From NCBI RefSeq assembly GCF_016612865.1, contig NZ_JAENZZ010000001.1, positions 310,001 through 374,000 on the forward strand: 64,000 nucleotides of DNA, written 5' to 3'. How positions within the stretch are numbered: position 1 is the stretch's first letter; every line of letters starts with the position of its first letter. Positions 934-62,487 of this stretch are shown here, one piece after another. The notes beneath the pieces were generated by a model. The model had not been told where the DNA came from. It searched no databases and was given only the letters and a program-made list of their open reading frames with translations. The DNA comes from Blastococcus sp. TML/M2B. GTDB taxonomy: Bacteria > Actinomycetota > Actinomycetes > Mycobacteriales > Geodermatophilaceae. The translations under genes and the position numbers were made by a program.

Positions 934-1609
934 TCACCTCGCGCGGCGGCGCAGGCGCTCCTCGTCGAGGACGACGACCGACTTGCCCTGCAGCTGGATC
1001 CAGCCGCGGTGCACGAAGTCGGCCAGCGCCTTGTTGACCGTCTCGCGGGAGGCGCCGACGAGCTGGGCCAGCTCCTCCTGGGTGAGGTCGTGCTTGACGC
1101 GCAGGCCGTCGCTCTCGCGGTTGCCGAAGCGGTCGGCCATCTGCAGCAGCGCCTTGGCCACGCGGCCGGGGACGTCGGTGAAGATCAGGTCGGCGACGGA
1201 GTCGTTGGTGCGGCGCAGGCGGCGGGCCAGCACGCGGAGCAGCTGCTCGCCGATCTCCGGGTGCGCCTCGATCCACGGGCGCAGCACCGACTGCGGCATG
1301 CGGGCCAGGCGGACGTCGGTGACCGCGGTCGCCGTCGCCGTCCGCGGGCCGGGGTCGAAGACCGACAGCTCGCCGAACTGGTCGGAGGGGCCCATTACGG
1401 CCAGCACGTTCTCGCGGCCGTCGGGGGCGCGGCGGGAGAGCTTGATCTTGCCCGTCATCACGATGTAGAGGCTGTCGCCGGGGCTCGCCCTCGTTGAAGA
1501 CGACGCGGCCGCGGGGGAGCGTGACGATCTCGAGCCGGCTGAGGACGGGGTCCACCGCGTCTTCCGACAGCCCCTGGAAGAGCCCCGACTGGGCCAGCAC
1601 CTCGTCCAC
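934..1609 (-). CDS. crp: Crp/Fnr-family cAMP-binding regulator (frame broken near 1480)
   Basis: Cyclic-nucleotide-responsive transcription factor, ortholog by sequence and context of M. tuberculosis Crp (Rv3676). The N-terminal cyclic-nucleotide domain includes [36 protein letters not shown] and the pocket segment [13 protein letters not shown]. The C-terminal winged helix includes [24 protein letters not shown] at 1609 is chosen because it begins the conserved VDEVLA and has AAAGGA upstream. The frame breaks between GEP and GDSLY, where a run of four G (1480-1483) replaces the expected three. Both halves match the family fully, so a sequence error is more likely than a pseudogene. Confidence 0.9.
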
Positions 1610-1759
1610 TGCACGTCCTTTCCCACTGCTGCTCGACGGGCGCATTGCTCCCGTGTCCGCAGCGAGTCTAGGGGCCTGTGCCCCGGGTCACCCGTTCGGT
1701 GGCACCCGGTGTCCCCCCTGCGAGCGAGTGCGCCGGCTCACAGGCGCCCCGGCCGGGGG

Positions 1760-2000
1760 TCAGACCAGCGGGGGGTTCGTGGTGCTCGCGCCGCCTTTGC
1801 GGCGGCGTCGCCAGCGGAACAGCGCCCGGCGGATGCCCGAGGAGGCCAGCGTGTCGACCTCGTCGGCGGTGGCGGTGTCGAGGAACTCGCCGACCTCGCG
1901 CGGCGAGGCGGGACGGCGCAACGGCTCCTCGACGCGCTCCATGACGAGCAGGAAGGCGATCAGCAGGGGCGGGAAGAGGATGGACGCTCAGCGCGACCAC
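1760..2000 (-). CDS. small single-pass membrane protein (frame broken near 1982)
   Basis: About 79 residues once one extra base at 1982-1983 is discounted. The N-terminus is hydrophobic (VVALS, then [19 protein letters not shown]), giving one membrane segment. A soluble tail with [19 protein letters not shown] ends in a very basic [17 protein letters not shown] at 2000 is preceded by GGGAGGAGG at a spacing of six bases, one of the best ribosome binding sites in the window, which argues for a real gene. It lies between crp and nth, transcribed toward crp. Function unknown. Confidence 0.6.
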
Positions 2001-2102
2001 GGCGACCTCCTCCCGACCTCGTGCGACGCGTCGCCGGCCCGCGGGACGCGGGATCGGCCGTTCTCGATTCTGGCACGACCGCTCCCTGTCAGCCGGGCCG
2101 CC

Positions 2103-2118
2103 TACGCTCGGTCGCGTG
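2103..2118 (+). promoter_or_regulatory. leaderless promoter of nth
   Basis: TACGCT at 2103-2108 matches the actinobacterial -10 consensus TANNNT and ends seven bases before the GTG start at 2116. No ribosome binding site is visible, so the mRNA probably begins at or next to the start codon. Confidence 0.5.
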
Positions 2119-2918
2119 TCCGCCCCCGCTCCGTCGCCGGCCTACGCGCGCCCGGTCAAGCCCCGCCGGCCCACGAAGGCCGCCCGCACGGGGGCCTCCC
2201 CCTTCGATCCGGGCGAGACCCCGCTCGGTCGCACCCGCCGGGCCCGGCGCATGGCGCGCGAGCTGGCCGTCATCCACCCCGACGCGCACTGCGAGCTGGA
2301 CTTCACGAACGCCTTCGAGCTGCTCGTGGCCACCGTGCTGTCCGCGCAGACGACGGACAAGATGGTCAACAAGGTCACCCCGCGGCTGTTCGCCCGCTTC
2401 CCGGACGCGCACGCCCTCGCCGGTGCCGACCGCGCCGAGCTCGAGGAGATCCTCAAGCCCACCGGCTTCTTCCGCGCGAAGATTCGAACTCGGCCCTCGG
2501 GCTGGCGCAGGCGCTGGTGGAGCGGTTCGACGGCGAGGTGCCCGGCCGGATGGCCGACCTCGTCACGCTGCCCGGCGTCGGGCGCAAGACGGCCAACGTC
2601 GTCCTCGGCAACGCGTTCGGCATCCCCGGGCTCACCGTCGACACGCACTTCGGCCGGCTGGTGCGCCGCTTCGGCTGGACCGAGGAGGAAGACCCGGTCA
2701 AGGTCGAGGCGCAGATCGCCGAGCTGATCCCGAAGAAGGAGTGGACCGACTTCTCCCACCGCGTGATCTTCCACGGCCGGCGCGTGTGCCACGCCAAGAA
2801 GGCCGCGTGCGGGGCATGCGGGCTGGCGCAGTGGTGCCCCTCCTACGGCATCGGCCCGGTCGACCCCGAGGTCGCCGGGAAGCTGGTCAAGACCCCCGCG
2901 GCCTCGGACACCGAGTGA
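2116..2918 (+). CDS. nth: endonuclease III (frame broken near 2482)
   Basis: Base-excision repair DNA glycosylase/AP lyase that removes oxidised pyrimidines. The helix-hairpin-helix [18 protein letters not shown], with the catalytic Lys in GRKTA, is followed by the catalytic Asp in [10 protein letters not shown]. The C-terminal 4Fe-4S cluster ligands follow as C-x6-C-x2-C-x5-C ([17 protein letters not shown]). The N-terminal half, including [19 protein letters not shown], reads in a different frame: two extra bases at about 2482-2483 separate FFRAK from [14 protein letters not shown]. Total length matches the family after correction. GTG at 2116 is probably leaderless. First gene of the nth–tlpA–NUDIX–cupredoxin–marP operon. 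Confidence 0.92.
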
Positions 2919-4715: not shown

Positions 4716-4717
4716 CC

Positions 4718-5900
4718 GTGTCGCTGGTGGACGTGGTGCTGATCGTGCTGGCGATGGCCTTCGCGCTGTCCGGGTTCCGGCAGGGGCTGCTCGTGTCGGC
4801 CACCTCGATCGCCGGTTTCCTGGGCGGCGCGGTGCTCGGCGCCCAGCTGTCCGGGCCGGTCGCCGAGCGGATCGACGGCTCCAGCGTCACCCGGGTGTTC
4901 GCCGCGCTCGTCGTCGTCCTCGCCGGGGCGCTGCTCGGGCAGATCCTGGCCGGGGCGATCGGCCGGGCGGTCCGGCGCACGGTGACCTGGGAGCCGGCGA
5001 AGATGCTGGACTCGGTCGCCGGTGCCGTCGTCTCCGCGGCCGCCGTCCTGCTGGTCGCCTGGATGGTCGCCTCGCCGCTGGCCAGCTCGCCGTTCCCGCA
5101 GGTGGCCGCGCAGGTGCGGCAGTCGGCGCTGGTGCAGGCCGTCGACAGCACCGTGCCCTCCGGCGTCCGGTCGGTCTACGACAGCCTCCGCGAGGCCATC
5201 GACCGGCGGGGGCTGCCCGACGTGCTCGACCCGCTCACCCCGACACGGGTCCGCGACGTGCCGGCGCCGGACCCCGCGCTCGAGGGCAGCCAGGTCGTCA
5301 CCTCCGTGCGCGGCTCGGTCGTCAAGATCACCGGGATCGCGCCGTCCTGCTCGCGGCAGATCGACGGCTCCGGCTTCGTCTACGCGCCGGAGCGGGTCAT
5401 GACCAACGCGCACGTGCTCGCCGGGGTCACCGAGCCCACCGTCGAGGCCGAGGGCGAGGAGTACGACGCGACGCCGGTGTACGTTGGACGAGGCGATCGA
5501 CGTCGCCGTCCTGCTCGTGCCGGGCCTGCCGCAGGTGCCGCTGACGCTCACCACGGCGCCGGCCGCGGCCGGGGACGACGCGATCATCATGGGCTACCCC
5601 GGGGGCGGGGACTTCTTCGTCGGTGCCGCGCGGATCCGCGACCAGGGCGACATCAGCGGGCCGGACTTCCGGGGCAGCCGCACCGTCGTCCGCGACGTGT
5701 ACGCGCTGTTCGGCACCGTGCGGGCCGGCAACTCCGGCGGCCCGCTGCTCGCGCCCGACGGCCAGGTGCTCGGCGTGGTCTTCGCCTCGGCGATCGACGA
5801 CCCGGACACCGGCTACGCGCTCACCGGCGCCGAGGTCGAGGACGCTGCACTGGCCGGCACGACCGCCCGCGCGACCGTCGGGACCGGCCCCTGCGAGTGA
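4718..5900 (+). CDS. marP: MarP-type membrane serine protease (frame broken near 5485)
   Basis: Acid-resistance periplasmic protease family. The N-terminal CvpA-like part (residues 1-115) has four hydrophobic segments, from VVLIVLAMAFALSGF to VVSAAAVLLVAWMVA. The C-terminal chymotrypsin-like domain has His in MTNAHVLAG, Asp in AIDVAVLLV and Ser in RAGNSGGPLLA, so the triad is complete. A cysteine near residue 210 (APSCSRQ) may pair as in MarP. One extra T at 5484-5485 splits the frame between VYV and DEAIDVAVL; removing it restores about 393 residues. GTG at 4718 follows the cupredoxin stop by two bases. Position matches Rv3671c. Confidence 0.88.
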
Positions 5901-5903
5901 GCC

Positions 5904-6832
5904 TCAGCGGGCCCAGTCGGCGATGGCCGCGCTGATCTCGTCGGGGGCCTCCTCGGGGAGGAAGTGCCCCCGACCGGGCAGCTCGCGCGCCACTCGTAGG
6001 CACCGGCGACGTAGCGGCCCGAGCCCGCCGCGGTGGCCGGCAGCACGCACCCGTCGAGCTCGCCGTGCAGCTGCAGCGTCGGCGCGGAGATCGGCGCGGC
6101 CATCCGCCGGGCGTACCGCAGGCCGTCGGGCCGCAGCTGCGAGCGGCCCGCCCAGCGGAAGTACTCCATCGAGCCGTAGGCGGCCTGCGGGATGCGGGCG
6201 GCGGAGCGGTACCGGTCGACGGCCTCGGCGAAGCCGGGCGCCTGCGTCCACGCCGGGCCCGACCAGTCGCGCAGCAGCTCGGCCACCGGGTCGTCGTCGG
6301 CACGGGTCAGCCGGCGCTCGGGCAGCCGCGGGAGCTGGGCGCCCAGGAAGTAGCGGAACGCCCGCCGTTGCGCGGCGTCGGCCATCCCGGCGCGCAGCCG
6401 GCGCGGATGCGCCATGGACAGGACGACGAGGCGGCGGACGCTGCGCGGGTGCAGCGCGGCCGTCGTCCAGGCGACCAGGGCACCCCAGTCGTGCCCGACC
6501 AGCACGGCGTCCCGCTCGCCCAGGGCGCGCACCAGCGCGGCGACGTCGGCCGCCGCGGTGGGCAGGTCGTAGCCGCGCGGCGGCTTGTCGCTCGCGCCGT
6601 AGCCGCGCAGGTCGGGCGCGACCACGCGGAAACCCGCCGCGGACAGGGCGGTGAGCTGGGCCCGCCAGGCCCACCAGAACTGCGGGAAGCCGTGCAGGAG
6701 CAGCACCAGCGGACCCTCGCCCGCCTCGGCGGTGTGCAGCGAGATGCCGTTGGCCGAGACGTCCCGGTGGGTCCACGGCCCCGGCAGCAGGACGCTGGTC
6801 GCGTCCGGCTGCCCGTCCGGCGGGACGGTCAC
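5904..6832 (-). CDS. alpha/beta hydrolase, EphE-like epoxide hydrolase family (frame broken near 5985)
   Basis: About 308 residues. The fold is clear: LVLLLHGFPQFWWAWRAQL supplies the HG oxyanion motif, LVGHDWGALVAW the nucleophile elbow with Asp as nucleophile, as in epoxide hydrolases and haloalkane dehalogenases, and GRGHFLPEEAP the catalytic His. The His-containing end reads in another frame: two extra bases within CGCGCGC at 5983-5990 separate AYEWR from ELPGRGHF. It converges with marP with a three-base gap, as ephE (Rv3670) does in M. tuberculosis. Substrate unknown. Confidence 0.85.
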
Positions 6833-7493: not shown

Positions 7494-9445
<1,952 letters not shown>

Positions 9446-14217: not shown

Positions 14218-15069
14218 ATGACGGTGCTGCCCGCCGCGTTCTTCGGGCACGGCAATCCGATGAACGCGCTGGAGAGGAACCGCTACACCGACGCCTGGCG
14301 GGCCTTCGGCCGCTCCGTGCCACGCCCGCGGGCGATCCTGGTCGTCTCCGCCCACTGGTACATCCAGGCCACTGCCGTGACCGCCATGCCGCGGCCGCGC
14401 ACGATCCACGACTTCTACGGCTTCCCGCGGGAGCTGTTCGACGTCCGGTACGAGCCGCCGGGGCTGCCCGATCTCCACGACGAGATCGCCGACGTCGTGC
14501 ACCCCACCTGGGTCGGCGCCGACGTCGACAGCTGGGGGATCGACCACGGCACCTGGTCGGTGCTGCTGCACGCCTTCCCGGACGCCGACATCCCGGTCGT
14601 CCAGCTGTCGATCAACGCGCTCAAGTCCTTCGACTACCACCTGCAGCTCGGGGCGGCGCTGGCGCCGCTGCGCCGCCGCGGCGTGCTGGTGATCGGCAGC
14701 GGCAACGTCGTGCACAACCTGGGCGGGGTCAGCCGGGCCATGCCCGACGCCGGGTTCGACTGGGCCCAGCGCTTCGACGAGCGGGCCAAGGAGCAGATGC
14801 TCACCGCGCCGACCGACGTCGCGCGGCTCGACGGGCACCGCGACTTCGACCTCGCCGTCCCGACGCCGGACCACTTCCTCCCGCTGCTCTACCTCGCCGG
14901 TTTGGCCGGCGCGACCGGCGACGCGGCGGAGGTGCTGGTCGACGGCTACGCCTACGGCTCGCTGTCGATGACCGCCTACACGGTCGGCATGGCGCCGCCG
15001 GAGACCACCGGCTCGGGCGTCGCCGCCGCGCTGCCGCAGGACCCGCCGACCGACGGCGCCAACATCTAG
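14218..15069 (+). CDS. ygiD: 4,5-DOPA-type extradiol dioxygenase (LigB family)
   Basis: A 283-residue class III ring-cleavage dioxygenase. The signature starts at AAFFGHGNPMNAL, with a metal-binding His and the family Asn-Pro-Met. VVSAHWYIQ supplies a second His, IDHGTWSVLLHAFP a third conserved segment, and IGSGNVVHNLG the catalytic/structural His-Asn near residue 165. Members cleave catechols such as DOPA in vitro; the natural substrate is usually unknown. ATG at 14218 follows GGGGAGAAG at good spacing. Confidence 0.88.
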   Translation: MTVLPAAFFGHGNPMNALERNRYTDAWRAFGRSVPRPRAILVVSAHWYIQATAVTAMPRPRTIHDFYGFPRELFDVRYEPPGLPDLHDEIADVVHPTWVGADVDSWGIDHGTWSVLLHAFPDADIPVVQLSINALKSFDYHLQLGAALAPLRRRGVLVIGSGNVVHNLGGVSRAMPDAGFDWAQRFDERAKEQMLTAPTDVARLDGHRDFDLAVPTPDHFLPLLYLAGLAGATGDAAEVLVDGYAYGSLSMTAYTVGMAPPETTGSGVAAALPQDPPTDGANI

Positions 15070-16802: not shown

Positions 16803-18042
16803 TCAGCCGCCGGCCGCGTCGTCCCCGGGGGCCAGTGAGACCACCGGCCCGACCACCCACACCGAGGGCGGCCGGATGTCGGCGGTCGCGAGGGTCCCGG
16901 GCAGCCCGCCCAGCGTGGTGCGCACCGTGCGCTGCGTGGGCGTCGAGCCGTCGCTGACGATCGCGACCGGGGTCGACGGGTCGCGGCCCGTGCTCGACCA
17001 GCGCGGCCGCGATCGCCGGCGCGGTGTCGACGCCCATGAGCACGACGACGGTGCCGCGCAGCCGGGCGATGGCCGGCCACTCGACCAGCGAGTTCGGGTG
17101 GCCCGGGGGCAGGTGGCCGGAGACGACCACGAACTCGTGGGTCAGCCCGCGGTGGGTGACCGGGATCCCGGCCAGCGCGGGCACGGAGATCGCGCTGGTG
17201 ACGCCGGGGACCACCTCGACCGGCACCCCGGCCGCCAGGCACGCCTCGACCTCCTCCATGCCGCGGCCGAAGACGAACGGGTCGCCGCCCTTGAGCCGCA
17301 CGACCCGCTTGCCGGCCAGCGCCCTGTCCACCAGCAGCTCGTTGATCTGCTCCTGCGCCATCGACCGGCCCCGCGGCAGCTTCGAGGCGTCGATGACCTC
17401 GACGTCCGGGGGCAGGGAGGCGAGCAGCGACAGCGGCGCCAGGTGGTCGGCGACGACGACGTCGGCCTGCGCCACCGCCTGCCGCCCGCGGACGGTGATC
17501 AGCGCCGGGTCGCCGGGGCCGCCGCCCACCAGCACGACCCCGCCCGCGCGGCCGGCGGCGACCGGGCGGGAGGTGCGGTCGGCGATCGTGCCGTCGGTCA
17601 GCCCGGTGAGGACGGCGTCCCGCACCGCGACGGCCCGCTGCGGGTCCCCGCCGCCGTGGACGCCGACGACGAGGTCGCCGTGCCGCCCGGTGGCCGGCGT
17701 CCAGACGCTGGAGGCGGTCCGGTCGTCGGCGCGGGCGCAGAAGATCCGCGCGCTCTCGGCCTCGGCGGCGACGGCCGCGTTCACCTCCGCGTCGTCGGTC
17801 GCGGCCACCGCGTACCAGGCGCCGGCGAGGTCGCCGGGTGCGTAGGGCCGGCGCACCCAGGTGAGCGAGCCGGGGGCGACGAGCGCCTCGATGGCCGGGG
17901 TGACCTCCGGGCTGACCACCGTCACCCGGGCCTGGGCCTCGAGCAGCCCGGCGACCCGCCGGTGCGCCACCTGCCCGCCGCCCACGACGACGACGGCCCG
18001 GTCCCGCAGGCGCAGGCCGACCGGGTAGACGGGGGAGACCAT
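16803..18042 (-). CDS. cysG: siroheme synthase-like fusion: precorrin-2 dehydrogenase and uroporphyrinogen-III C-methyltransferase (frame broken near 16987)
   Basis: About 412 residues. The N-terminal Rossmann domain ([20 protein letters not shown]) is the CysG-type precorrin-2 dehydrogenase/ferrochelatase part. The C-terminal SUMT domain has [17 protein letters not shown], the second motif [15 protein letters not shown] and [20 protein letters not shown]. It feeds siroheme and cobalamin synthesis. One extra base at 16985-16989 shifts the last 60 residues: [14 protein letters not shown] appears only in the next frame, ending at 16803. ATG at 18042 overlaps the cobT stop (TGATG), so the two are one operon. 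Confidence 0.88.
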
Positions 18043-23586: not shown

Positions 23587-24215
23587 ATGACCGACACCGC
23601 ACCCACCCCGCCGCTGCGCGCCCTCGCCCTGGTGTGCAGCCTCAAGCCCTCGCCCGCACCGTCCAGCAGCGAGCTCCTCGCCCGCCAGGTCCTCGACCAG
23701 CTGGCACAGCACGGCGTCACCGGCGACGTCGTCCGGGTCGTGGACCACGACGTGAAGCCCGGCGTCGAGATCGACATGGGCGAGGGCGACGCCTGGCCGG
23801 CCATCCGCGAGCAGCTGATGGCCGCCGACATCCTGATCGTCTCGACGCCCACCTGGGTCGGGCACATGAGCAGCGTCGCGCAGCGGGTGCTCGAGCGCCT
23901 GGACGGCGAGCTGTCCGAGACCGACGACTCGGGTCGCCCGCTGGTCGCCGGGAAGGTGGCGGTCACCGCCGTCGTCGGCAACGAGGGCACGGCGCGCACA
24001 AGATCACCGCGGACCTGTTCCAGGGCCTGAACGACATCGGCTTCACCATCCCGTCGCAGGGCGGCACCTACTGGAACGACGTGGCGATGGGCAGCCGCGA
24101 CTACCAGGACCTGGACGAGACGCCCGAGGCCGTCGCCTCCACGACCGCGACGCTGGCGGAGAACGCCGCGCACCTGGCCCGGGCGCTCACGGCGACGCCC
24201 TACCCGGGCAGCTGA
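23587..24215 (+). CDS. flavodoxin-family NAD(P)H-dependent oxidoreductase (frame broken near 23994)
   Basis: About 208 residues of the NADPH-dependent FMN reductase/flavodoxin fold. LALVCSLKPSPAPSSSELLARQVL is the phosphate-binding loop, and ILIVSTPTWVGHMSSVAQRVLERL the isoalloxazine region. The C-terminal third (HKITADLFQGLNDIGFTIPSQG, YWNDVAMGSRDYQDL) is in another frame, because two extra bases lie in a GCGCGC run at 23992-23997. Reconstructed, it reads VGNEGTAHKITA like its homologs (NEDGAHK). The 3' end overlaps the convergent MFS gene by 16 bases. Confidence 0.82.
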
Positions 24216-29166: not shown

Positions 29167-29719
29167 TCACGGGCAGAACTCCACCCGGGTGACGCTGCCG
29201 TTGTGCGGCGTGACCGCGGGCATCGCGTCCGGCCCCAGGTCGGCGACGACCGCCTGGATCGCCCGGATCGTGTCCCCGTGGGTGACCAGCGCCATCACGT
29301 CCGCGGGCGGCTCGGCGCACAGGTCCTTGAGGTAGGCGGCGACCCGGCCGTGCAGCTCGGCCAGGCTCTCCCCGCCCTCGGCCGACCACTGCGCGTCGGA
29401 CCAGTCGACGACGTCCCACAGCTCCCGGGACGGGCGGCCCTCGAGCACGCCGTAACCCTGCTCGCGCAGCGACGGCGTCGTGACGAACCGGCAGGCCGGT
29501 CGCGCGGGAGCAGGCCTCCGCGGTCTGCACCGCCCGCAGCAGGTCGCTGCTGATGAGCGCGCCGGGGGAGAGGGTCGCCAGCTCGGCCGCGGCCTCCTCG
29601 GCCTGGCTGCGGCCCAGCGCGGTCAGGGGCACGTGCGGCGTCTGACCCTGCATGAGACCCGCGGCGTTCCACTCGCTCTGCCCGTGGCGGACGAGCAGGA
29701 GGGTCAGCGGGCGGGCCAT
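29167..29719 (-). CDS. histidine phosphatase family protein, possible CobC (frame broken near 29487)
   Basis: About 183 residues of the phosphoglycerate mutase-like fold. The catalytic His and Arg lie in LLLVRHGQSEWN, and the second His in MALVTHGDTIRAI. A proton-donor Glu is expected in the GYGVLEGRPSRELWD region. One extra A at 29486-29487 breaks the frame between GLPV and the segment before EQGYGVLEG; both sides match the family. It lies about 100 bases upstream of cobS on the same strand, so alpha-ribazole-5'-phosphate phosphatase (CobC) is a reasonable but unproven role. A general phosphatase is the alternative. Confidence 0.8.
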
Positions 29720-33056: not shown

Positions 33057-34192
33057 GCGCCGCGCTGCTGGACCGGGTCCGGGCGCGGCTGGCGCTGGGG
33101 CCCGGGCTGCCGACCCAGGCCGAGGTGGCGGCGGTCGTCCGCGCCGAGAGCGGTGGCCTGCTCGGGGACGACGACGTGCTGCGGGCGGTGCGCGACGCCG
33201 TCGACGAGCTGGCCGGGGCCGGTCCGCTCGAGCCCCTGCTGCGCCTGCCGGACGTCACCGACGTGCTGGTCGCGGCACCCGACCGGGTGTGGATCGACCG
33301 CGGATCGGGTCTGGAGCTCACCGAGGTGCGCTTCCCGGACGACGCGGCCGTCCGCCGGCTCGCGGTCCGGCTGGCCGCGGCCGCCGGGCGGCGCCTGGAC
33401 GACGCCGCGCCCTGGGTGGACGTCGGGCTGCCCGACGGCACCCGCCTGCACGCGGTGCTGGCACCGGTGGCCGGCAGCACCTGCCTGTCGCTGCGGGTGC
33501 TGCGCCGCTGCCACCGGAGCCTGGCCGACCTCGCGGCGCTCGGTGCGCTGCCCGGGGAGAGCCCGGCACTGCTGCGGGCGCTCGTGCGGTGGCGCCGGGC
33601 GTTCCTCGTGACCGGCGGGACCGGTTCGGGCAAGACGACGGTGCTCTCGGCCCTGCTCGGCGAGGTCGGTCCGGCCGAACGGGTGCTGACCTGCGAGGAC
33701 GCGCCGGAGCTCGCGCCGGACCACCCGCACGTCGTCCGGCTGCTGACCCGCCCCCCCAACGTGGAGGGCGTCGGGCAGGTGACGCTGCGCGACCTGGTGC
33801 GGCAGGCGCTGCGGATGCGCCCGGACCGGCTGGTGGTCGGGGAGGTGCGCGGCGCCGAGGTCGGCGATCTGCTGGCCGCGCTGAACACCGGCCACGACGG
33901 AGGCTGCGGCACCCTGCACGCCAACCGGCCGGCGGAGGTTCCGGCGCGGCTGGAGGCGCTCGGTGTGGCGGCGGGGTTGGACCGCGCGGCGGTGCACAGC
34001 CTCGCGGCCGCAGCGCTCCACGTCGTGGTCCACCTGGGGCGCACCCCGGAGGGCCGTCGGGTGGAGGAGCTGGGGGTGCTGTGGCGGGCCGGGGAGCGGG
34101 TGGTCGTGGAGCCCGGCTGGCGGGCCGACGGCGGCCCGTGCCCGGCGGCCGACCGGCTGCACGAGCTGCTGGACGGGACGGCCCGGAGATGA
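33053..34192 (+). CDS. tadA: TadA-family secretion ATPase
   Basis: A 379-residue type II/IV secretion ATPase that powers tad pilus assembly. Walker A is VTGGTGSGKTTVLSALL, the Walker B/Glu region RMRPDRLVVGEVRGAEVGDLL, and the His box ALNTGHDGGCGTLHAN. The N-terminal domain (LLRLPDVTDVLVAAPDRVWIDRG) is the usual TadA ring domain. GTG overlaps the ssd stop (GTGA). Corresponds to Rv3659c. Confidence 0.92.
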   Translation: MSAALLDRVRARLALGPGLPTQAEVAAVVRAESGGLLGDDDVLRAVRDAVDELAGAGPLEPLLRLPDVTDVLVAAPDRVWIDRGSGLELTEVRFPDDAAVRRLAVRLAAAAGRRLDDAAPWVDVGLPDGTRLHAVLAPVAGSTCLSLRVLRRCHRSLADLAALGALPGESPALLRALVRWRRAFLVTGGTGSGKTTVLSALLGEVGPAERVLTCEDAPELAPDHPHVVRLLTRPPNVEGVGQVTLRDLVRQALRMRPDRLVVGEVRGAEVGDLLAALNTGHDGGCGTLHANRPAEVPARLEALGVAAGLDRAAVHSLAAAALHVVVHLGRTPEGRRVEELGVLWRAGERVVVEPGWRADGGPCPAADRLHELLDGTARR

Positions 34193-34965
34193 GCGCACTG
34201 CTGCTGGTCGCGGCAGCGCTGCTGCTGTGGCCCGGGCGGGGAGCCGGCGTCCGGCTGTCCCGCACCGGTCCGGGCGCGCGCCCGCGCGTCGCCTGGATGC
34301 CCGACCTCCCCGTCCTGCTGGTGGCCGCTCTGGCGGCCGCGGTCGCCGCGCTGGTCAGCACACCCCTGGTCGCGGCGCTCGCCGGCGCCGCCGCAGCCGC
34401 AGGCGTCCGCGCGCACGCCGCGCGCCGGGGCGATGCCCTCGCCGGCGCCAGCCTGCGCGGACTGGCCGACGGGCTCGGCGCGCTGGCCGCGGACCTGCGC
34501 AGCGGCCGGTCGATGGAGGAGGCCACCGCGGCCGCCGAGCACGCGACGGGGGACGCGGGCACCGGCCGGCTCCTCGCCCGCGCGGTCCGGGCGCCGGACG
34601 TCGCGTTCCCCGAGGTGCCGGGGGAGATGGGTGCCGCGCTGGGCCGGATCGCCGCCGGTACCCGGCTCAGCGCGCGGACCGGGTGCTCCCTGGCAGCCGT
34701 GGCCACCGCGGTCGAGGACGACCTGCGGGCGCGGTCCCGGCACCGGGAGGAGCTGCGTGCCGCCACGGCGGGTCCGCGGGCGAGCGCCGCGGTCCTGGCC
34801 GGCCTGCCGGTGCTCGGCCTGCTCATGGGCAGCGGGGTCGGCGCCGACCCGTGGCGGGTGCTGACGACCACCGGGACGGGGCAGGTGCTGCTGGTCGTCG
34901 GGGTGGCGCTCGAGGCGGCGGGGCTGGCCTGGTCGCGCCGGCTGGTCCAGCGGGCGCTGCGGTGA
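34189..34965 (+). CDS. tadB: type II secretion system F-family protein, TadB
   Basis: A 258-residue inner-membrane platform protein. Membrane segments LLLVAAALLLWPG and LPVLLVAALAAAVAALV are at the N-terminus and AAVLAGLPVLGLLMG with VLLVVGVALEAAGLAW at the C-terminus. The cytoplasmic GspF domain between them includes LRSGRSMEEATAAAE and DDLRARSRHREELRAATAGPRASA. ATG overlaps the tadA stop. Shorter than Caulobacter TadB but normal for actinobacterial Rv3658c-like proteins. Confidence 0.85.
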   Translation: MSALLLVAAALLLWPGRGAGVRLSRTGPGARPRVAWMPDLPVLLVAALAAAVAALVSTPLVAALAGAAAAAGVRAHAARRGDALAGASLRGLADGLGALAADLRSGRSMEEATAAAEHATGDAGTGRLLARAVRAPDVAFPEVPGEMGAALGRIAAGTRLSARTGCSLAAVATAVEDDLRARSRHREELRAATAGPRASAAVLAGLPVLGLLMGSGVGADPWRVLTTTGTGQVLLVVGVALEAAGLAWSRRLVQRALR

Positions 34966-34978
34966 CCCGCCGTCGGCC

Positions 34979-35722
34979 GTGACGACGGACCGTCCCTGGG
35001 CGGTGCTGCTGGTGCTCGCCGCCGCGCTGGCCCTGTGGCCCGCGGCCGGCGGTGCGGGGGCGGCCCGCTGGTCGGCGATCCGGCCCGCCGCTGCGTCGCC
35101 CGGTGCCGGACCCCCGCCGCCGGACGCCGCGCGCGAGCGGCTCCGGCGCCGGCTGCTCGCCGCGGCCGCCGGCTCCGCGGTGGCGCTCCTGCTCGGCGGG
35201 ATCGTCGGGCTGGCCACCGGGGGCGTGCTCGCCGTCGTCGTCGACCGCCTGCTGCGCGGGCGGGAGGACGGATCTGCCCGGGACGGCGCGGCGCTGGTGC
35301 GCGACCTGCCCGCGGCCTGCGACCTGCTGGGCGTGTGCCTGGCCGCGGGGTTGCCCGTCGAGGGCGCGCTCGAGGCGGTGGGGACCGCCCTGGGTGGCCC
35401 GCTGGGCGGCGAGCTGCGCGCCGTGGCGGCCGTGGCCCGCCTGGGCGCCGACCCCCGCCGGGCGTGGGCCGACGCACCACCGGAGCTGGCGCCGCTGGCG
35501 CGGGTGCTCGTCCGGGCCGGGGAGTCCGGCGCCTCGGTGGCCGGTGCCCTGCGGACGCTGGCCGCGGAGACCCGGGCCGCTGCCCGGGCGGCGACGCAGG
35601 CCGCCGTCCAGCGGGCCGGCGTGTGGGTGCTCGCCCCGCTCGGTGCCTGCTTCCTTCCGGCCTTCGTCTGCCTGGGGGTCGCGCCGCTGGTGCTCGGCAT
35701 CGCCGGCGACGTCCTCGGGTGA
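34979..35722 (+). CDS. tadC: type II secretion system F-family protein, TadC
   Basis: A 247-residue second platform protein. It has an N-terminal segment AVLLVLAAALALWPAAGG, a middle pair of segments, and a GspF domain with DLLGVCLAAGLPVEGALEAVG and LARVLVRAGESGASVAGALRTLAAETRAAAR. The C-terminal segment is WVLAPLGACFLPAFVCLGVAPLVLG. GTG start 13 bases after tadB. Matches Rv3657c by position. Confidence 0.85.
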   Translation: MTTDRPWAVLLVLAAALALWPAAGGAGAARWSAIRPAAASPGAGPPPPDAARERLRRRLLAAAAGSAVALLLGGIVGLATGGVLAVVVDRLLRGREDGSARDGAALVRDLPAACDLLGVCLAAGLPVEGALEAVGTALGGPLGGELRAVAAVARLGADPRRAWADAPPELAPLARVLVRAGESGASVAGALRTLAAETRAAARAATQAAVQRAGVWVLAPLGACFLPAFVCLGVAPLVLGIAGDVLG

Positions 35723-35725
35723 GGG

Positions 35726-36154
35726 TCAGGGGTGCGGTGCAAGCACGAAGACGTCGGAGAACTCGGAGACGACCTCCAGCACCGCGGTGAGGTCACCGGT
35801 GGCGCGCGCCTCGGCCATCCGCTGGTGGAACTCGCCCGTGCGCAGCGCCGGCCGGGTCTCCCAGCTGACGACGGCGCGCACCGCGCCGGGGTTGCGCATC
35901 CGGTGCACGCTCCCGGCCGGGACGTCGACGGTGTCCCCGGCCCGCAGGGTGGTCGCCGCGCCGTCCACCTCGCACCACATCTCGCCCTCCAGCACGGTGA
36001 ATCGCTCGCTCTGCTGGGGGTGCAGGTGGGCCGGGGGCAGGTCGGAGCCGGGCCGGTAGGTGGCCAGCATCGCGTGCACCTGCCCGCCGCTGCCCTCGCC
36101 GGTGGTCGTGAACTCCAGCCGTACGTTGCCGTCGTCCAGCACGGTCGGTTCCAT
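35726..36154 (-). CDS. cupin-domain protein
   Basis: A 142-residue single cupin. Motif 1 is PPAHLHPQQSERFTVLEGEMWCEVDG, with two His and a Glu as metal ligands. Motif 2 is GDTVDVPAGSVHRMRNPG, with the last His. The C-terminal helix FHQRMAEARATGDLTAVLEVVSEF is common in mannose-6-phosphate isomerase-like or stress-related cupins. ATG at 36154 follows GAGGACG. It is inserted on the opposite strand within the tad operon and may be a later insertion. Substrate unknown. Confidence 0.8.
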   Translation of the reverse strand: MEPTVLDDGNVRLEFTTTGEGSGGQVHAMLATYRPGSDLPPAHLHPQQSERFTVLEGEMWCEVDGAATTLRAGDTVDVPAGSVHRMRNPGAVRAVVSWETRPALRTGEFHQRMAEARATGDLTAVLEVVSEFSDVFVLAPHP

Positions 36155-44620: not shown

Positions 44621-47465
<2,845 letters not shown>

Positions 47466-48297: not shown

Positions 48298-48409
48298 GCC
48301 GGGACGCTAGCCCCCCGGACGGCCGAAAGGGATCGGGATCGTCGGTGCCGGCCGGTAGCGTGAGCTCTCCGGGGCCAGCTCCGCCCCCTCCGCCACGAAC
48401 CCGGGAGCC

Positions 48410-52134: not shown

Positions 52135-53640
52135 GTGGTGGCATCGACGCCCGGCAGCGACGGGCTAGCGCCCGCGCCCGCCGTGGCGGCCGGGCCCGGG
52201 CACGCGGCGTCACCCGAGGGCCGGCCGTGGGTGCTGGCGGCGTACGGCGTCGTGACGACCGTGGCCCTGGTCGTCTTCGGCGTCGACCCGACGCTGGGCG
52301 TCATCGCCGGAGCGCTCAACGTCGTCTTCGCGGTCTTCTTCATCCGGCACCTCTCCTTCGCCGTCGCCGCCGCGCGGTGGGCCGAGCGCGACCTCCTGGC
52401 CGCGGACATCGGCCTGGGGGACTACACCCCGGACGTCGCGGTCCTCGTCGGCTGCAAGAACGAGGAACTGGTCGTCGACGGCATGGTCAGCGCGCTGCTG
52501 GCCCTGGACTACCCGGCCCACCGGCTGACCCTGGTCGTGGTCGACGACGGATCGGACGACGACACCGGTCCGAAGCTGGACGCGTGGGCCGCCCGGGAGC
52601 CCCGGCTGCGCGTGCTGCACCGGCCCCCGGGCGCCGGCGGGGGGAAGTCCGGTGCCCTCAACGACGCCCTGGCACTCGTCGAGGCCGAGGTCGTGCTCGT
52701 CTTCGACGCCGACCACGAGCCGGAGCCTTCGGCGCTGCGCCGGCTGGTCCGGCACTTCCGCGACCCCACGGTCGGCGCGGTCATGGGCCGGTGCGTCATC
52801 CGCAACGGCAAGGACTCGTCCATGGCCGGGACCGTCTTCGTCGACTACCTCTCCGGCTACCTGGTCAACGAGTACGGCCGCCAGGCCCTGTTCGAGCTGC
52901 CCGCCTACGGTGGCGCCAACTGCGCCGTGCGGATGTCGACGCTGCGCGCACTGGGCGGCTGGAACCCGGAGACCGTCACCGAGGACACCGACCTCACGCT
53001 GCGGATCCTCATGGCCGGCCAGCGGGTGCGCTTCGACGTCACCGCGATCGACTTCGAGGAAGCGGTCGTCACCGCCCAGCGGTTCTGGAAGCAGCGGTAC
53101 CGGTGGGCGCGCGGCCACCAGAAGTGCCTGCGCGACTACTGGCGTCCGCTGATGCGCTCCCCGCACCTCTCGCTGCTCGAGAAGGTCGAGACGACGCTGT
53201 TCCTGCTCGTCTACCACGTGCCGGTGCTCAGCGGGCTGGGGCTGCTGCTCACGGTCCTGCGCGCCTTCGGCATCGGCGACCTGCCCGCCGTCGCGGTGCT
53301 GCCCCTGTCGATGCTGCTGTTCGTCGGCCCCCTGGCCGAGCTGTGCGTGGGCCTGCTCGTCGGCCGGGTCGAGCGCCGGTCGGCCTGGCGGCTGCTCGGC
53401 TTCCTGCCCTCGTTCGCGCTGGCGGTGGTCATCACCACCCGGGCCTACGTCGACGGGATGCTCGGCCGCCCGTACACGTGGGTGAAGACCTCCCGCTCCG
53501 GCGCGACGTCCACGGTCCGCCCGGCTGCGGTCGCGCGGGCGGAGAGCGCCGGCCCCGCTGCCGTGCCCGCGGGGGCGCCGACCCGCCCGCGGACCTTCGC
53601 CCTGAGCGGCCCGCGGCCCGCGGAGGTGGGGGAGCGATGA
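52135..53640 (+). CDS. processive glycosyltransferase family 2, membrane-bound
   Basis: About 501 residues. Two N-terminal membrane segments (WVLAAYGVVTTVALVVFGV and VIAGALNVVFAVFFI) precede the cytoplasmic GT2 domain with VVVDDGSDDDTG, the metal-binding FDADHEPEPSAL, the catalytic-base segment TEDTDLTLRIL and the processivity motif QRYRWARGH (QxxRW). Three C-terminal segments follow. This is the cellulose/hyaluronan/poly-GlcNAc synthase architecture, so it probably polymerises a sugar and moves it across the membrane. GTG at 52135 follows GGAGGA; an upstream ATG at 52018 lacks support. First gene of the exosortase locus. Confidence 0.85.
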   Translation: MVASTPGSDGLAPAPAVAAGPGHAASPEGRPWVLAAYGVVTTVALVVFGVDPTLGVIAGALNVVFAVFFIRHLSFAVAAARWAERDLLAADIGLGDYTPDVAVLVGCKNEELVVDGMVSALLALDYPAHRLTLVVVDDGSDDDTGPKLDAWAAREPRLRVLHRPPGAGGGKSGALNDALALVEAEVVLVFDADHEPEPSALRRLVRHFRDPTVGAVMGRCVIRNGKDSSMAGTVFVDYLSGYLVNEYGRQALFELPAYGGANCAVRMSTLRALGGWNPETVTEDTDLTLRILMAGQRVRFDVTAIDFEEAVVTAQRFWKQRYRWARGHQKCLRDYWRPLMRSPHLSLLEKVETTLFLLVYHVPVLSGLGLLLTVLRAFGIGDLPAVAVLPLSMLLFVGPLAELCVGLLVGRVERRSAWRLLGFLPSFALAVVITTRAYVDGMLGRPYTWVKTSRSGATSTVRPAAVARAESAGPAAVPAGAPTRPRTFALSGPRPAEVGER

Positions 53641-54852
53641 CGTCCGTCGCCGCCGACCCGGCGCCCGCGGTGTCCCGCAGGGCCGGCCTCGTCCGCCGGG
53701 GGAGCGCCCGCCGGCTGTTCCCCGTGGCGCTGGACCTGGTCCTCGCGGCGCTGATCTGCTTCGTCGGCTTTCGCTACCTGACCGATCCGCTGCGCGAACT
53801 CGAAGCGCTCGGCCTCGCCCAGGTGGTCTCCTGGATCGAGCCGGGGCGGGCCTCGGACATCCTGCCGGGGCACGTCCTGCTCTTCCCCGAGCGCGGCGGC
53901 ATGATCGACGCCGTCGTCACGGCCTCGTGCTCGTCGATCCTGTCGGTGCTCGGGCTGACCGCCCTCACCGCCGTCATCCTGCGCGGTCGCAAGCTCCACG
54001 CGGTCGCCGGGCTGCTGGTCGCCGTCGCCGCCCTCCTCGTGCTCAACCACGTGCGGCTGCTGCTGTCGGCCCTGGCCGGCATGTGGTGGAGCGACGCCGC
54101 GCTCGTGCTCTTCCACGACTGGGTCGGCACGCTGTGGAACCTGGCCGCCACCCTGGGCGGGTTCCTGCTCATGGTGTGGTTCGCCCTGCCGACCCTTGAG
54201 CGGGCGGAGCAGGACGTCGCGGGCCGGCACACCGCCCGCCGTCCCGACAGCTGGGCCCGACCCGGGCTCGGCTACCGGGCGCCGGAGGTCGAGGAGGCCC
54301 GGAAGCCGGGCCGACGGAGGACGTCGATCACCGGCCTGCTGCACCGCTACGTCTACCCGGCCCGGCTGTCCGCGTGGCTGGGCGCCCGACGGGAGGCCGG
54401 GCGGATCGACTACCGCATCGGTCACCTCCCGGTGTCGGCGCGCATCGCGCGCGTCCGGGCGCTGGTCTCCGACGGTCTCGGCCGCGCACCCGGCCTCGCT
54501 GGTCGCGGTCGCCTCCTACGACGAGGACCCGCTGGTCCTCGACGCCCTGGCGCAGGCGGTCGCGGCGCGCCAGTGGGAACCGGTCACGAACCACCGCGTG
54601 GCCGCCCTCCGGCTGTGGGCCCGCGGCTGGCTGCTGGCCCGCGGCCCCGGGAACGAGCCCGACGACCCGGTGCACGCCGTCGAGGAGCCGCACCTCCTCG
54701 ACGGGACCGTCCGCATCCCGGCCGTGACGGTCACCCGCATGGCGGTCCCGCCGCCGCCGCCCACCACCGGCCCGGACGGGCTCACCCGGCACCGCCGGCT
54801 CAGCTTCGCCCGCCCGCTCCCCCCGCAGACGCCACCAGGAGACGCCTCGTGA
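53637..54852 (+). CDS. exosortase/archaeosortase-family protease (frame broken near 54484)
   Basis: About 404 residues. The first 190 form a multi-pass membrane domain. The catalytic residues of the family can be placed as Cys98 in TASCSSILSV, Arg140 in LNHVRLLLSAL and His160 in LVLFHDWVG. A long cytoplasmic or extracytoplasmic C-terminal region (residues 190-404) is unusual. It includes LLHRYVYPARLSAWLG, then ASLVAVASYDEDPLVLDALAQAV, WEPVTNHRVAALRLWARGWLLA and a Pro-rich end. One extra base at 54483-54486 shifts this region; the correct frame ends at 54852, where the stop overlaps the next GTG. ATG overlaps the GT2 stop. Confidence 0.8.
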
Positions 54853-55898
54853 CCTCCACCCTCGACGCGCCGCCGCCCGCGCCCAGCGGCCCGGACGCGC
54901 ACGACGCCCCCGCCGTTCTCGTCACCGGAGCGGGCGGACCGGCCGGGATCGCGGTCATCCGCCGGCTCATGGCACGCGGGCAGCGGGTGGTCGCCGTCGA
55001 TGCCGATCCGTGGGCGACCGGCTGCGAGCTGGCGACGGTCGGTGCCATGGTCCCGCGCGCGGACCACCTGCACTTCGTCGACGCCCTGATCGGCGTCGCG
55101 ACGGCGCACGGCGTCGACGCGCTCATCGGCACGGTCGCCGAGGAGCTGCCCGCACTGGCCGCCGGTGCCGAGCGGCTGGCCCGGGCCGGCGTGGCGACCT
55201 GGTTCGCCGACCCGCTCAGCGTCGAGCTGTGCTGCGACAAGTCCGCCTTCGCCCGTGCCCTGCGGCTCGCCGGGGTCCCGCACCCGGCGACGACCGACAC
55301 CCCCGCGGGCCTCAACGAGGTCCCCGGCCCCTGGGTGGTCAAGCCGCGGGCGGGTCGTGGCAGCCGCGGCGTCCGCCTGCTCGACTCGCGCTCGGCCGTC
55401 GTCGAGGCCATGCGGGCCGATCCGTCGCTCATCGTGCAGACCCGGCTCTCCGGCCGGGAGTTCACCGCCGACGCCCTGGTGGACCGGAACGGCGAGCTGC
55501 TGACCGTCGTCCCCCGGTGGCGCACGGAGGTCAAGGCGGGCATCTCGGTCAAGGGCACCACCTTCGACTCCTCGACGGTGACCGACGCGGTGGCCGGCGC
55601 GCTGGAGGCCGTCGGCCTGACCGGGCCGGCCAACGTCCAGGGGTTCGTCGCCGACGACGGACGGGTGACGGTGCTCGAGATCAACCCGCGGTTCTCCGGC
55701 GGCCTGCCGCTGACCCTGGCGGCCGGCGCCGACGTCGTGAGCACCTACCTGTCCGGGATCCGGGAGCCGGGCCGGCAGCTGCAGCACCTCTGGTTCACCC
55801 CGGGGGTGAGCATGCGCCGCTACTTCGCCGAGGTGTTCACCGCCGAGGACGGCAGCCACCTGCCCGATCCCAGCGACGTCCGGGTCGGGCAGGCATGA
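54849..55898 (+). CDS. ATP-grasp domain protein (carboxylate–amine ligase-like)
   Basis: A 349-residue ligase. The N-terminal pre-ATP-grasp Rossmann-like part is VLVTGAGGPAGIAVIRRLMARGQRVVAVDADPWATG. The ATP-grasp core has CCDKSAFARALRLAGVPHPAT, the Lys-Pro strand WVVKPRAGRGSRGVRLL, a metal site in VLEINPRFSGGLPLTLAAGAD and a short C-terminal tail. Such proteins join a carboxylate to an amine through an acyl phosphate; PylC- and CarB-like proteins are the nearest pattern. In this locus it may attach an amino acid to a sugar or peptide. GTG overlaps the exosortase stop. Confidence 0.82.
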   Translation: MTSTLDAPPPAPSGPDAHDAPAVLVTGAGGPAGIAVIRRLMARGQRVVAVDADPWATGCELATVGAMVPRADHLHFVDALIGVATAHGVDALIGTVAEELPALAAGAERLARAGVATWFADPLSVELCCDKSAFARALRLAGVPHPATTDTPAGLNEVPGPWVVKPRAGRGSRGVRLLDSRSAVVEAMRADPSLIVQTRLSGREFTADALVDRNGELLTVVPRWRTEVKAGISVKGTTFDSSTVTDAVAGALEAVGLTGPANVQGFVADDGRVTVLEINPRFSGGLPLTLAAGADVVSTYLSGIREPGRQLQHLWFTPGVSMRRYFAEVFTAEDGSHLPDPSDVRVGQA

Positions 55899-59288: not shown

Positions 59289-59316
59289 CGCCGGCACCCC
59301 CGACGCCCGGAACGCT

Positions 59317-59351
59317 GACGGCGGCCCACCCGTGCAGGGTGAGCCGCCGTC
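59317..59351. terminator. bidirectional terminator between the deacetylase gene and ppa
   Basis: A 15-bp stem (59317-59331 with 59337-59351) with one mismatch and a five-base loop, placed between the stops of two convergent genes. Confidence 0.75.
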
Positions 59352-59387
59352 GGTGCGCTCGGGGACCCGGAGGGCCGTGGACAGGGG

Positions 59388-59882
59388 TCAGTGGTGCGGT
59401 GCCGCGTTCTTGGCGCGCTCGAGCGAGGCGATGATCTCGGCCTCGGCCTCTTCGCGGCCGACCCAGTTGGCGCCCTCGACCGACTTGCCCGGCTCGAGGT
59501 CCTTGTAGGTCTCGAAGAAGTGCTGGATCTCGAGGCGGTCGAACTCCGACACGTCGGAGATGTCCTTGAGGTGGGACATCCGCGGGTCGGTCGCCGGCAC
59601 GGTGAGGACCTTGTCGTCCCCGCCCGCCTCGTCGGTCATGCGGAACATGCCGATGGCCCGGCAGGTGATCAGGCACCCGGGGAACGTCGGCTCCTCGAGC
59701 AGCACCAGGGCGTCGAGCGGGTCGCCGTCCTGTCCCAGGGTGCTCTCGATGTAGCCGTAGTCCGCCGGGTAGCGGGTTGAGGTGAACAGCATCCGGTCCA
59801 ATCGGATGCGTCCGGTGGCATGGTCCAGCTCGTACTTGTTGCGCTGGCCCTTCGGGATTTCTACCGTCACGTCGAACTGCAC
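59388..59882 (-). CDS. ppa: inorganic pyrophosphatase, family I
   Basis: A 164-residue soluble pyrophosphatase. [26 protein letters not shown] provides the N-terminal Lys and Glu, and [32 protein letters not shown] the signature DGDPLD with metal-binding Asp residues. [16 protein letters not shown] and [15 protein letters not shown] complete the site. GTG at 59882 gives the usual start ([11 protein letters not shown]); a GTG six codons upstream is less likely. Divergent from dacB, as Rv3628 is from Rv3627c. Confidence 0.95.
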
Positions 59883-59939
59883 CCGCCTAGTCTTGCGCAC
59901 GGTGACCCCGCATGTTCTGCGGAGGTCACCTTTTGGGGG

Positions 59940-61359
59940 GTGGGCACCATCGCGTCGAGCGGTTCGACGATCGTCACAGCGCGGACCGGACGGTTCCGGC
60001 GCCGCATCGCGCTCGGCGTCATCGCGCTGGTCCTGGTGCTCGTCGGCGGCGGCATCGCGCTCACCGGCGGCTTCGGTGGCGACGACGACGCGACCGCCGG
60101 CACGGTGTCGGTCCCGGACGCCGACCTGCCCGAGCTCGGCGAGGTCACGCCGGTGCTCGCCTCGCTCGACTCCGCCGCCCCGGCGCCGGACCCGGACGTG
60201 CTCGCCGCGCGGATCGGGCCGCTGCTGCAGGACCCCGGCCTGGGGTCCGGCGTCTCCGCCGAGGTCGTCGACGTGGCCAGCGGTGACGTGCTCCTCGACC
60301 TGGACGCCGCCGACCCCGCCATCCCCGCCTCGACCGCGAAGCTGCTCACCGCCGTCGCCGCGCTCACCACCCTGGACCCGGCGCAGACGATCCCCACGAC
60401 CGTCGTCGCGGGCAGCACGCCCGGCGAGGTCGTCCTCGTCGGGGGCGGCGACCCGACGCTGTCGCGCACCTCGCCGTCGACAGACCTACCCCGGTGCCCC
60501 GACCGTCGCCGACCTCGCGTCGCAGGTGGTCGTGGCGCTGCCCGCGGGCACCCCGGTCAGCCGCGTCGTCGTCGACAGCTCGCTGTTCACCGGGCCGCTG
60601 ACGGCGCAGGGCTGGGGGCCCTCGGACGCCCCGTCGAGCTACGCCGCCCCCGTCACGGCGACCGCCGTCGACGGCGCCCGCGTGAGCCCCGGCTCGCTGG
60701 CCCGCAGCGGCCAGCCCGGCATCGACGCAGGTGTCGCGCTCGCCGACGCCCTGGGCGCCCCGGGCGCGACCGTCGTCCCCGGCGAAGCGCCGGCCGGCGC
60801 GCGGACGCTGGCCACCGTGCAGTCGGCGCCGATCGCCCGGCTGGTCGAGCAGACCCTGTCCATGTCGGACAACGTGCTGGCCGAGGCCCTGGCCCGCCAG
60901 GTGGCGCTGGCCCGCGACCTGCCCGCCTCGTTCGAGGGCGCGGCGGAGGCCGTCGTCGAGGCCCTGGGTGAGGCCGGGATCGACGTCGGCCGCGTCGCGC
61001 TGGCCGACGGCAGCGGCCTGTCGCGGCTGGATCAGGTGCCCGCCGACGTGCTCACCGACCTGGTCGCCGGCGCCGCGGACGGCTCGCTGCCCCACGCCTC
61101 CGCGGTGCTGTCCGGCCTCCCGGTCGCCGGGTACACCGGCACGCTGTTCGACCGGGGCGACGCGAACACCGCGCCCGGCGTCGTGCGGGCCAAGACCGGG
61201 ACGCTGCTCGGCGTGCACGCCCTGGCCGGGACGGCGGTCACCGCCGACGGCCGCCTGCTGGCCTTCGCCCTCGTCGCCGACGACTCGGGCAGCGAGGCCG
61301 GTGCCGAGGCGGCCCTGGACGCCGTCGCCGCCGCGCTCGCGGGCTGCGGCTGCAGCTGA
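59940..61359 (+). CDS. dacB: D-alanyl-D-alanine carboxypeptidase, S13 (DacB/PBP4) family (frame broken near 60480)
   Basis: About 472 residues. An N-terminal membrane segment ([22 protein letters not shown]) anchors a periplasmic penicillin-binding domain. SxxK is in [15 protein letters not shown], SxN in [15 protein letters not shown] and KTG in [16 protein letters not shown]. An insertion between SxxK and SxN, typical of the S13 family, carries [13 protein letters not shown]. One extra A at 60480 splits the frame; without it the junction reads [17 protein letters not shown]. Start GTG at 59940. First of dacB–metalloprotease–tilS–hpt, the order also found around Rv3627c–Rv3624c. Confidence 0.9.
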
Positions 61360-61403
61360 CGCGCGCACCCGGGGACGTCGTCCCCCGTGGGTACCGTGGG
61401 CCG

Positions 61404-62487
61404 ATGAGCAGCCCCTCCTCGATGGTCGACTGGAAGCTCGCCGGCCGCACCGCGCGCCGGCTCGCCGGACCGGGGCCGGCCCACGACCCGCGAGGACGCC
61501 GCCGCCGTCGTCCGCGAGCTGCACGAGGCCGCGGCCACCGCCGTCGCGCACGTGGAGCGGCTGACCGGGATGACCCCGGTCGCCGGCGGCCCCGTCCCCG
61601 AGGTCGCCGTCGTCGACCGGCCCGGCTGGGTCGACGCCAACGCGCGGGGGATGGCCGCGCTGCTCGACCCGCTCGTCGACGCGCTCGCCGAGCGCACCGG
61701 GAGCCGCCCCGGCGCCCTCGCCACCGCGATCGGCTCGCGGGCCACCGGCATCCAGGCCGGCGGCGTCCTGGCCTTCCTCAGCTCGCGGGTGCTCGGCCAG
61801 TACGAGGTCTTCGGCACCGGCGGGCGGCTCCTCCTCGTCGCCCCCAACATCGTCGCCACCGAGCAGAAGCTGGGCGTCGACCCGTCGGACTTCCGGCTCT
61901 GGGTGTGCCTGCACGAGGTCACCCACCAGCTGCAGTTCACCGCCGTCCCGTGGCTGCGGCCCTACCTCGAGAGCCAGATCGCCGAGTTCGTCGACGCCAC
62001 CGACCTCACCGCCGACGTGCTGCGCGACCGCCTGCAGGACGTGCTCCGCGGCATCACCGGGGCCCTCCGCGGCGACGACGACGAGTCCGAGGGGCTCATG
62101 GCGCTCATCCGCGACCCCCGGCAGCGCGAGGTGCTCGACCGGGTGACCGCGGTGATGAGCCTGGTCGAGGGGCACGCGGAGTACGTGATGGACGGCGTCG
62201 GCCCCGACGTCGTCCCGACCGTGCGCACGCTGCGCAAGCGGTTCGCCCAGCGCCGCAAGGGCCGCGGGCCGCTCGACCGCGTGCTGCGCCGGCTGCTCGG
62301 CCTGGAGCAGAAGATGAAGCAGTACGCCGACGGGCGGGTGTTCGTCGGCGGGGTGATCGACCGGGCCGGCATGGAGGGGTTCAACCAGGTCTGGGTGAAG
62401 GCGGAGAACCTCCCGCACCTCGACGAGCTCACCGCGCCCGAGCGCTGGGTCGAGCGGGTCCTCGGCCGGCCGGCCATCCCCGCCTGA
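61404..62487 (+). CDS. zinc-dependent metalloprotease, DUF2342/Zincin_2 family (frame broken near 61480)
   Basis: About 360 residues, Rv3626c-like. The zinc site is VCLHEVTHQLQFTAVPWL (HExxH), with a downstream Glu-His in SLVEGHAEYVMDGVGPD as probable third ligand. The N-terminus (VDWKLAGRTARRLAGPGP) is in one frame and TREDAAAVVRELHEAA onward in another, because of one extra base at about 61476-61482. The C-terminus GMEGFNQVWVKAENLPHLDEL is strongly conserved. Its substrate is unknown; the family is confined largely to actinobacteria and some archaea. Located between dacB and tilS. Confidence 0.88.

Follow-up and report, generated by a model that had tools for sequence, protein, structure and literature searches.

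Windowed consensus and a comb of frame breaks

Several programs for sequence consensus, according to excerpts of the papers that describe them, work in windows of 500 bases. Racon has a default window of 500 (PMC6588044), and its windows are laid without overlap (PMC11232133). metaMDBG re-implements the Racon scheme and polishes in non-overlapping 500-nt windows (PMC11392814), and the nanoMDBG paper mentions the mending of 500-bp polished windows that could come out too short (PMC13087279). CONSENT overlaps its windows, since window extremities are hard (PMC7804095). Here we examine a 64,000-base stretch of Blastococcus sp. TML/M2B, positions 310,001 to 374,000 on the plus strand of contig C1 (NZ_JAENZZ010000001.1) in an assembly of 4,114,186 bases and four contigs, C1 to C4 (GCF_016612865.1). 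In this stretch, called the window below, the frame is shifted by one or two extra bases at fourteen sites in phase with a 500-base interval. These breaks are, with high probability, artefacts of assembly left at the joints of a 500-base windowed consensus step, made perhaps by Racon or a Racon-like program.

The comb that the breaks form resembles each of these systems in part. It shares with Racon the 500-base window length and the lack of overlap, and Racon windows begin at base 1 of a contig. It departs from what Racon, followed by Medaka, would have left in a comparison genome, G043, in which no comb is seen; we presume G043 to be Blastococcus PFR04-17, the published genome for which an excerpt describes an assembly by Flye, Racon and Medaka with their defaults (PMC9670885). 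The likeness to metaMDBG and nanoMDBG, as far as the excerpts of their papers go, lies in the non-overlapping 500-nt windows, the partial-order consensus and a fault at window ends that was later mended; that fault cut windows short, whereas this genome gained bases. CONSENT, in the part of its paper available, likewise uses 500-base windows and names their extremities as hard, but with its 50-base overlap the reckoned spacing is about 450 instead of 500. Long-read frameshifts of the scattered kind, as in G043, also produce many apparent pseudogenes, but they carry no 500-base phase. A direct report of a comb of +1 and +2 frameshifts from Racon window edges did not surface in our literature search, most of which was not full-text.

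Fourteen insertions in the window

The window was aligned to five congeners (Blastococcus relatives). Frame breaks were also called without homology by a frame-tracking hidden Markov model, trained on 168,018 coding bases of congeners and run on 1,208,186 bases of the genome (about 29%), in stretches that were not chosen at random. The model confounds +1 with -2, and +2 with -1. Its calls were retained only where 90 bases of same-strand coding sequence lay on each side; from a pre-filter listing of 13 events in the window and five in three control loci, this removed window event 24295 and control events L025:9191, L033:9345 and L033:12301. Because 310000 is a multiple of 500, phase in the window equals phase on the contig.

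The five-congener alignment yielded 58 clusters of lasting phase shift in the window. Twelve of them show the same net shift in every covering congener (4 or 5), always as +1 or +2 in this genome, and ten of the twelve sit at least 84 bases inside predicted genes. Two sites lacking five-congener cover, at 23994 (+2) and 54484 (+1), were checked on other congeners, and the result was the same. Insertion is supported at 14 of 14 sites, the shift being missing in all congeners that cover each one. The sites are as follows, with the approximate position of each unanimous cluster in brackets:

1479..1484, minus strand (1482): crp-like regulator, +1 break; 4 of 4 covering congeners; model break at 1481; downstream piece with cNMP_binding and HTH_Crp_2.
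1981..1984, strand not given (1982): +1 shift in what the first-pass annotation labelled a small membrane gene; 4 of 4 covering congeners.
2481..2485, plus strand (2482): nth (endonuclease III), +2 break; 4 of 4 congeners; HhH-GPD profile positions 1-54 before and 62-108 after; match to TIGR01083 nth under cut-off.
5469..5485, plus strand (5483): marP serine protease, +1 break; 4 of 4 congeners; Trypsin_2 profile positions 1-47 before and 50-144 after; match to NF033740 MarP under cut-off.
5969..5994, minus strand (5988): alpha/beta hydrolase, +2 break; 4 of 4 congeners; model break at 5994; Abhydrolase_1.
7981..7988, minus strand (7986): acs (acetyl-CoA synthetase), first +1 break; 4 of 4 congeners; flanked by AMP-binding and AMP-binding_C.
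8472..8493, minus strand (8491): acs, second +1 break; 4 of 4 congeners; flanked by AMP-binding profile positions 6-229 and 239-378.
16973..16993, minus strand (16988): cysG-like siroheme synthase, +1 break; 5 of 5 congeners; NAD_binding_7, TP_methylase and CysG profiles.
23991..23997, plus strand: FMN-reductase/flavodoxin-like gene, +2 break; 8 of 8 further congener loci; model break at 23993; FMN_red.
29482..29492, minus strand (29485): histidine phosphatase, +1 break; 5 of 5 congeners; flanked by His_Phos_1 profile positions 1-68 and 72-181.
45481..45484, plus strand (45482): topA, +1 break; 5 of 5 congeners; flanked by Topoisom_bac profile positions 2-79 and 93-410.
54473..54486, plus strand: exosortase-family gene, +1 break; 2 of 2 congeners aligning there; model break at 54475; TIGR04178 over cut-off, XrtS under cut-off.
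60478..60481, plus strand (60479): dacB (PBP4-type carboxypeptidase), +1 break; 5 of 5 congeners; TIGR00666 PBP4 on both sides, the upstream piece under cut-off.
61462..61482, plus strand (61462-61478, exact spot ambiguous): zincin-like metallopeptidase, +1 shift near the gene start; 5 of 5 congeners; Zincin_2 downstream.

The phases of the 14 sites are about 462-493 modulo 500, or 470-493 when each is given one position, and the chance of 14 positions falling inside some 24-base arc is about 1e-16. The frame model found 12 of the 14, missing those at 1982 and 61465. The model treats the DNA at these two sites as non-coding, at distances of 39 and 87 bases from a predicted gene, so that their status as frame breaks depends on the congener alignment alone. 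In nth, marP, acs, the histidine phosphatase and topA, profile matches halt at the break and restart 3-14 profile positions later. When the TopA piece was compared with named records, 80 matched, 15 of them from Geodermatophilaceae (nine from Blastococcus), with a top identity of 96% to Blastococcus aggregatus. The first-pass annotation, made from the letters of the window, had proposed these fourteen breaks, had taken each to be an insertion and had placed them at 500-base intervals. All three claims hold up against the congeners, none of which carries the extra bases where it covers a site, and its gene names fit at 13 of the 14 sites, several as pieces under the family cut-off.

Among the other clusters, 45 have partial or single-relative support, or sizes that conflict. 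Seven of the 46 clusters outside the set of twelve are coding and at least 60 bases from a gene boundary (3034, 35037, 35095, 35143, 35290, 50588 and 51645), each in one relative. A per-column test for unanimous indels found 18 bases present in this genome only, four at edges and 14 off edges (nine of the 14 being one block, 2013-2021), and nine unanimously missing bases, none at an edge. Because gap placement varies among aligners, this test is weak and of little use.

Phase of frame breaks across the genome

Tabulating breaks modulo 500 beyond the window, as the first-pass annotation had suggested, extended the pattern to three of the four contigs. In all the sequence run, the model called 154 frame breaks. 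When positions are numbered from the first base of each contig, 126 of these fall no more than 45 bases from a multiple of 500. The window contributes 12 of its 12 breaks, the rest of C1 38 of 44, C2 49 of 60, C3 20 of 26 and C4 7 of 12. The resultant length R is 0.85 on C1, 0.77 on C2 and 0.78 on C3, values that none of 20000 random sets per contig attained. Among whole-number periods from 100 to 2000, 500 fits best, for C1 and C2 separately.

The phase is anchored at the contig starts. Within the first 100 kb, the distance from zero phase is at most 13 bases for 13 of 13 breaks on C2, at most 9 for 11 of 13 on C1 and at most 16 for 10 of 11 on C3; on C4, a contig of 35 kb, it is at most 21 for 7 of 12. 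Near the start of C1, bases private to this genome were found at 15003 and 17004, by comparison with nine and eight congener loci, respectively. From these starts the phase drifts slowly: smoothly from +5 to about -21 over 394 kb of C1, from about -4 to about -16 on C3, and on C2 to a maximum of +38 at 600 kb, returning to near zero at 1.8 Mb. Such slow drift is the expected result of windows laid on a draft, because small net changes in length follow.

In contig interiors (1,095,092 bases) the model called 113 events in phase and 12 off phase, at densities of 10.3 and 1.1 per 100 kb. Every 100 kb contains 200 joints, so that about 1 joint in 19 is affected in the sampled interiors; in the window the figure is 14 of 128 (about 1 in 9). 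Both strands are affected alike: the 126 phased events comprise 54 on the minus and 53 on the plus strand in the +1 class, and 9 and 10 in the +2 class. Scaled up, 126 events per 1.208 Mb may amount to roughly 430 false frameshifts genome-wide.

Control genomes

The model was applied to three control sets. The first (19 loci, 379,314 bases, sequences on which the model was trained) gave five events; the second (G033, G017 and G016; 300 kb) gave two; and the third (nine further genomes of the family, 360 kb) gave four. G032 was excluded because its runs of N confuse the frame model. Pooled, the controls contain 11 events in about 1,039 kb, which equals the rate of off-phase interior events in this genome (about 1 per 100 kb). 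Off-edge frame errors being at control level, the consensus inside the polishing windows must have been very accurate. No comb of like density was found in 14 other few-contig genomes of the family, of which 40-180 kb each were sampled.

Of the five events in the first control set, four are no more than 50 bases away from a multiple of 500. G017 accounts for three of the four (loci L025 and L026; C1 positions 441548, 447529 and 468525), at phases 25-48, and the first 100 kb of that genome is event-free; the G017 phases could reflect chance or a weak comb.

Nature of the surplus bases

Private substitutions show no clear rise at the edges: at phases 470-499 they occupy 75 of 1534 unanimous columns, as against 1280 of 27293 overall, and a general loss of base quality at the edges was rejected on these counts. 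Nor are homopolymers involved to any visible extent, the longest nearby run averaging 2.9 at 45 phased C1 sites and 3.1 at 5000 random places. With neither substitutions nor homopolymers in clear excess, the surplus resembles an error of joining rather than of base calling.

Repeats at contig ends

Near-identical repeats that stand in different register allow one copy to be read against another. A stretch of 6.7 kb is common to C4 and C2, and stretches of 4.8 and 1.4 kb are common to C3 and C1. Three of about ten difference events between copies are extra bases at edges, two on C4 (one with an adjacent substitution) and one on C3, and all three are missing in the other copy, where the same sequence lies away from an edge. 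When C4 was compared with the first 999 bases of C2 (98 percent), a 7-base difference was found at C2:500, the bases being missing from C2; other differences lie elsewhere, some within 20 bases of C4:8500. The count excludes repeat pairs from the distal ends of C1 and C2, where local phase is less certain.

Each of the four contigs has a multi-kb near-identical repeat near one end, common with another contig (C2:1070-7723, C4:9-6664, C3:501-6864 and C1:767-6982). Off-phase events are commoner close to contig ends and on C4 (16 of 29) than in interiors; we suspect that repeats and thin coverage are responsible.

Origin of the frame breaks

The windowed-consensus explanation, which we regard as very probable, runs as follows. 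Starting at base 1, a consensus program divided every draft contig into 500-base windows placed end to end, treated the windows separately and then joined the results, and at some joins one or two surplus, frame-breaking bases were left. These bases would stem from the ends of windows in which a partial-order consensus, or something similar, was computed. The apparently broken genes are probably intact in the strain. Because Racon followed by Medaka need not leave a comb, we infer that the 500-base step came late in this assembly and worked with accurate reads.

Several observations weigh against this explanation. The evidence consists of assembled sequences. C4 taken alone is not significant (R 0.37, matched by 3820 of 20000 random sets). 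The rate of private substitutions in phase bin 470-479 is 0.067, the highest of 50 bins, though it is 0.029 in bin 480-489. Just three of about ten differences between repeat copies are extra bases at edges, and seven lie elsewhere. Finally, the presumed Flye, Racon and Medaka genome G043 has 14 model breaks in 100 kb that are unphased (R 0.28, p about 0.34), so that the use of Racon by itself does not predict a comb.

As to which program made the joints, two versions of the windowed-consensus explanation come into question. A Racon-like polisher inside an assembler, of the metaMDBG/nanoMDBG family, or a caller working in 500-base chunks such as PacBio Quiver/Arrow, is close to an even chance. 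The high accuracy inside windows fits HiFi reads, and the chunk size of Quiver/Arrow is 500 bases. The metaMDBG scheme, with its partial-order consensus in non-overlapping 500-nt windows (excerpt of PMC11392814) and the window-trimming fault that its authors mended (excerpt of PMC13087279), comes near to what is needed, but the known fault shortened windows, and here bases were added. Racon itself, if run with its defaults on accurate reads (HiFi, R10 or short) and as the last step to take effect, is a reasonable candidate, though we would not wager on it. Its default length and lack of overlap match the comb, and frame accuracy inside windows at control level agrees with accurate reads; however, G043 is unphased, although Medaka ran after Racon there, and the Racon window scheme has been reused in other tools. 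The first-pass annotation had attributed the breaks to the edges of 500-base polishing windows and had named Racon as an example. Phase, anchoring and drift bear out the window artefact; the identification of Racon is not proven, since the presumed Racon and Medaka genome lacks the phase.

Ordinary nanopore homopolymer errors are very unlikely to be the cause. A four-contig assembly with many frame breaks might suggest them, but the breaks are phased, those in the window are all insertions, and homopolymer errors were rejected on the lack of homopolymer excess at the 45 phased C1 sites, where runs are not longer than at random. The relative presumed to be a published nanopore assembly, G043, has breaks that are unphased. 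In G043 (C1:60001-160000; loci L249-L250 and L267-L269), 9 of the 14 breaks belong to the class of one missing or two extra bases, these being model calls with no homology check, and the pseudogene count of that genome may be inflated too.

Real pseudogenes, phase variation or programmed frameshifting have a negligible probability: 12 of the 14 breaks do fall in model-called coding frames, but the affected genes include housekeeping ones such as topA, the frames are unbroken in the congeners that cover the sites, and biological frameshifting was rejected because the phase is bound to contig starts, which are accidents of assembly without meaning to the cell, so that a biological cause is effectively excluded.

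Other features of the window

Around 48402 (48371-48409, phase about 402), this genome is two bases shorter than 4 of 4 congeners. The DNA there is called non-coding by the model, 5 bases past a gene end, and the shift accordingly breaks no frame. This -2 indel, the sole consistent off-phase indel among the clusters, is probably natural. In the exosortase region (53500-55500), long matches were found in two of 22 other congeners searched, a distribution that suggests an accessory segment. G+C reaches 0.807 at 32001-36000, the other 4-kb blocks of the window lying at 0.74-0.78.

Implications

The comb is an artefact, and its use is forensic rather than biological. We tentatively propose that such contig-anchored combs of false frameshifts, detectable from sequence by phase and drift, recur across a class of public assemblies and metagenome bins, namely those whose polishing used fixed windows; the lack of a comb this dense in all 14 of the other few-contig genomes of the family, at the sampling given above, speaks against this proposal. 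If it were true, pseudogene counts and lost-gene claims for such assemblies would be largely artefact. A read-free test of frame breaks, of their phase from the contig start and of its drift could screen other high-GC assemblies, and would separate combs left by polishing from sequencing errors that are merely scattered, and from biology. For Blastococcus sp. TML/M2B itself, annotation would wrongly count the affected genes as dead and, if the sampled rate holds, claims of gene loss or pseudogenes would be mistaken for hundreds of genes, among them topA, nth, acs, crp and marP.

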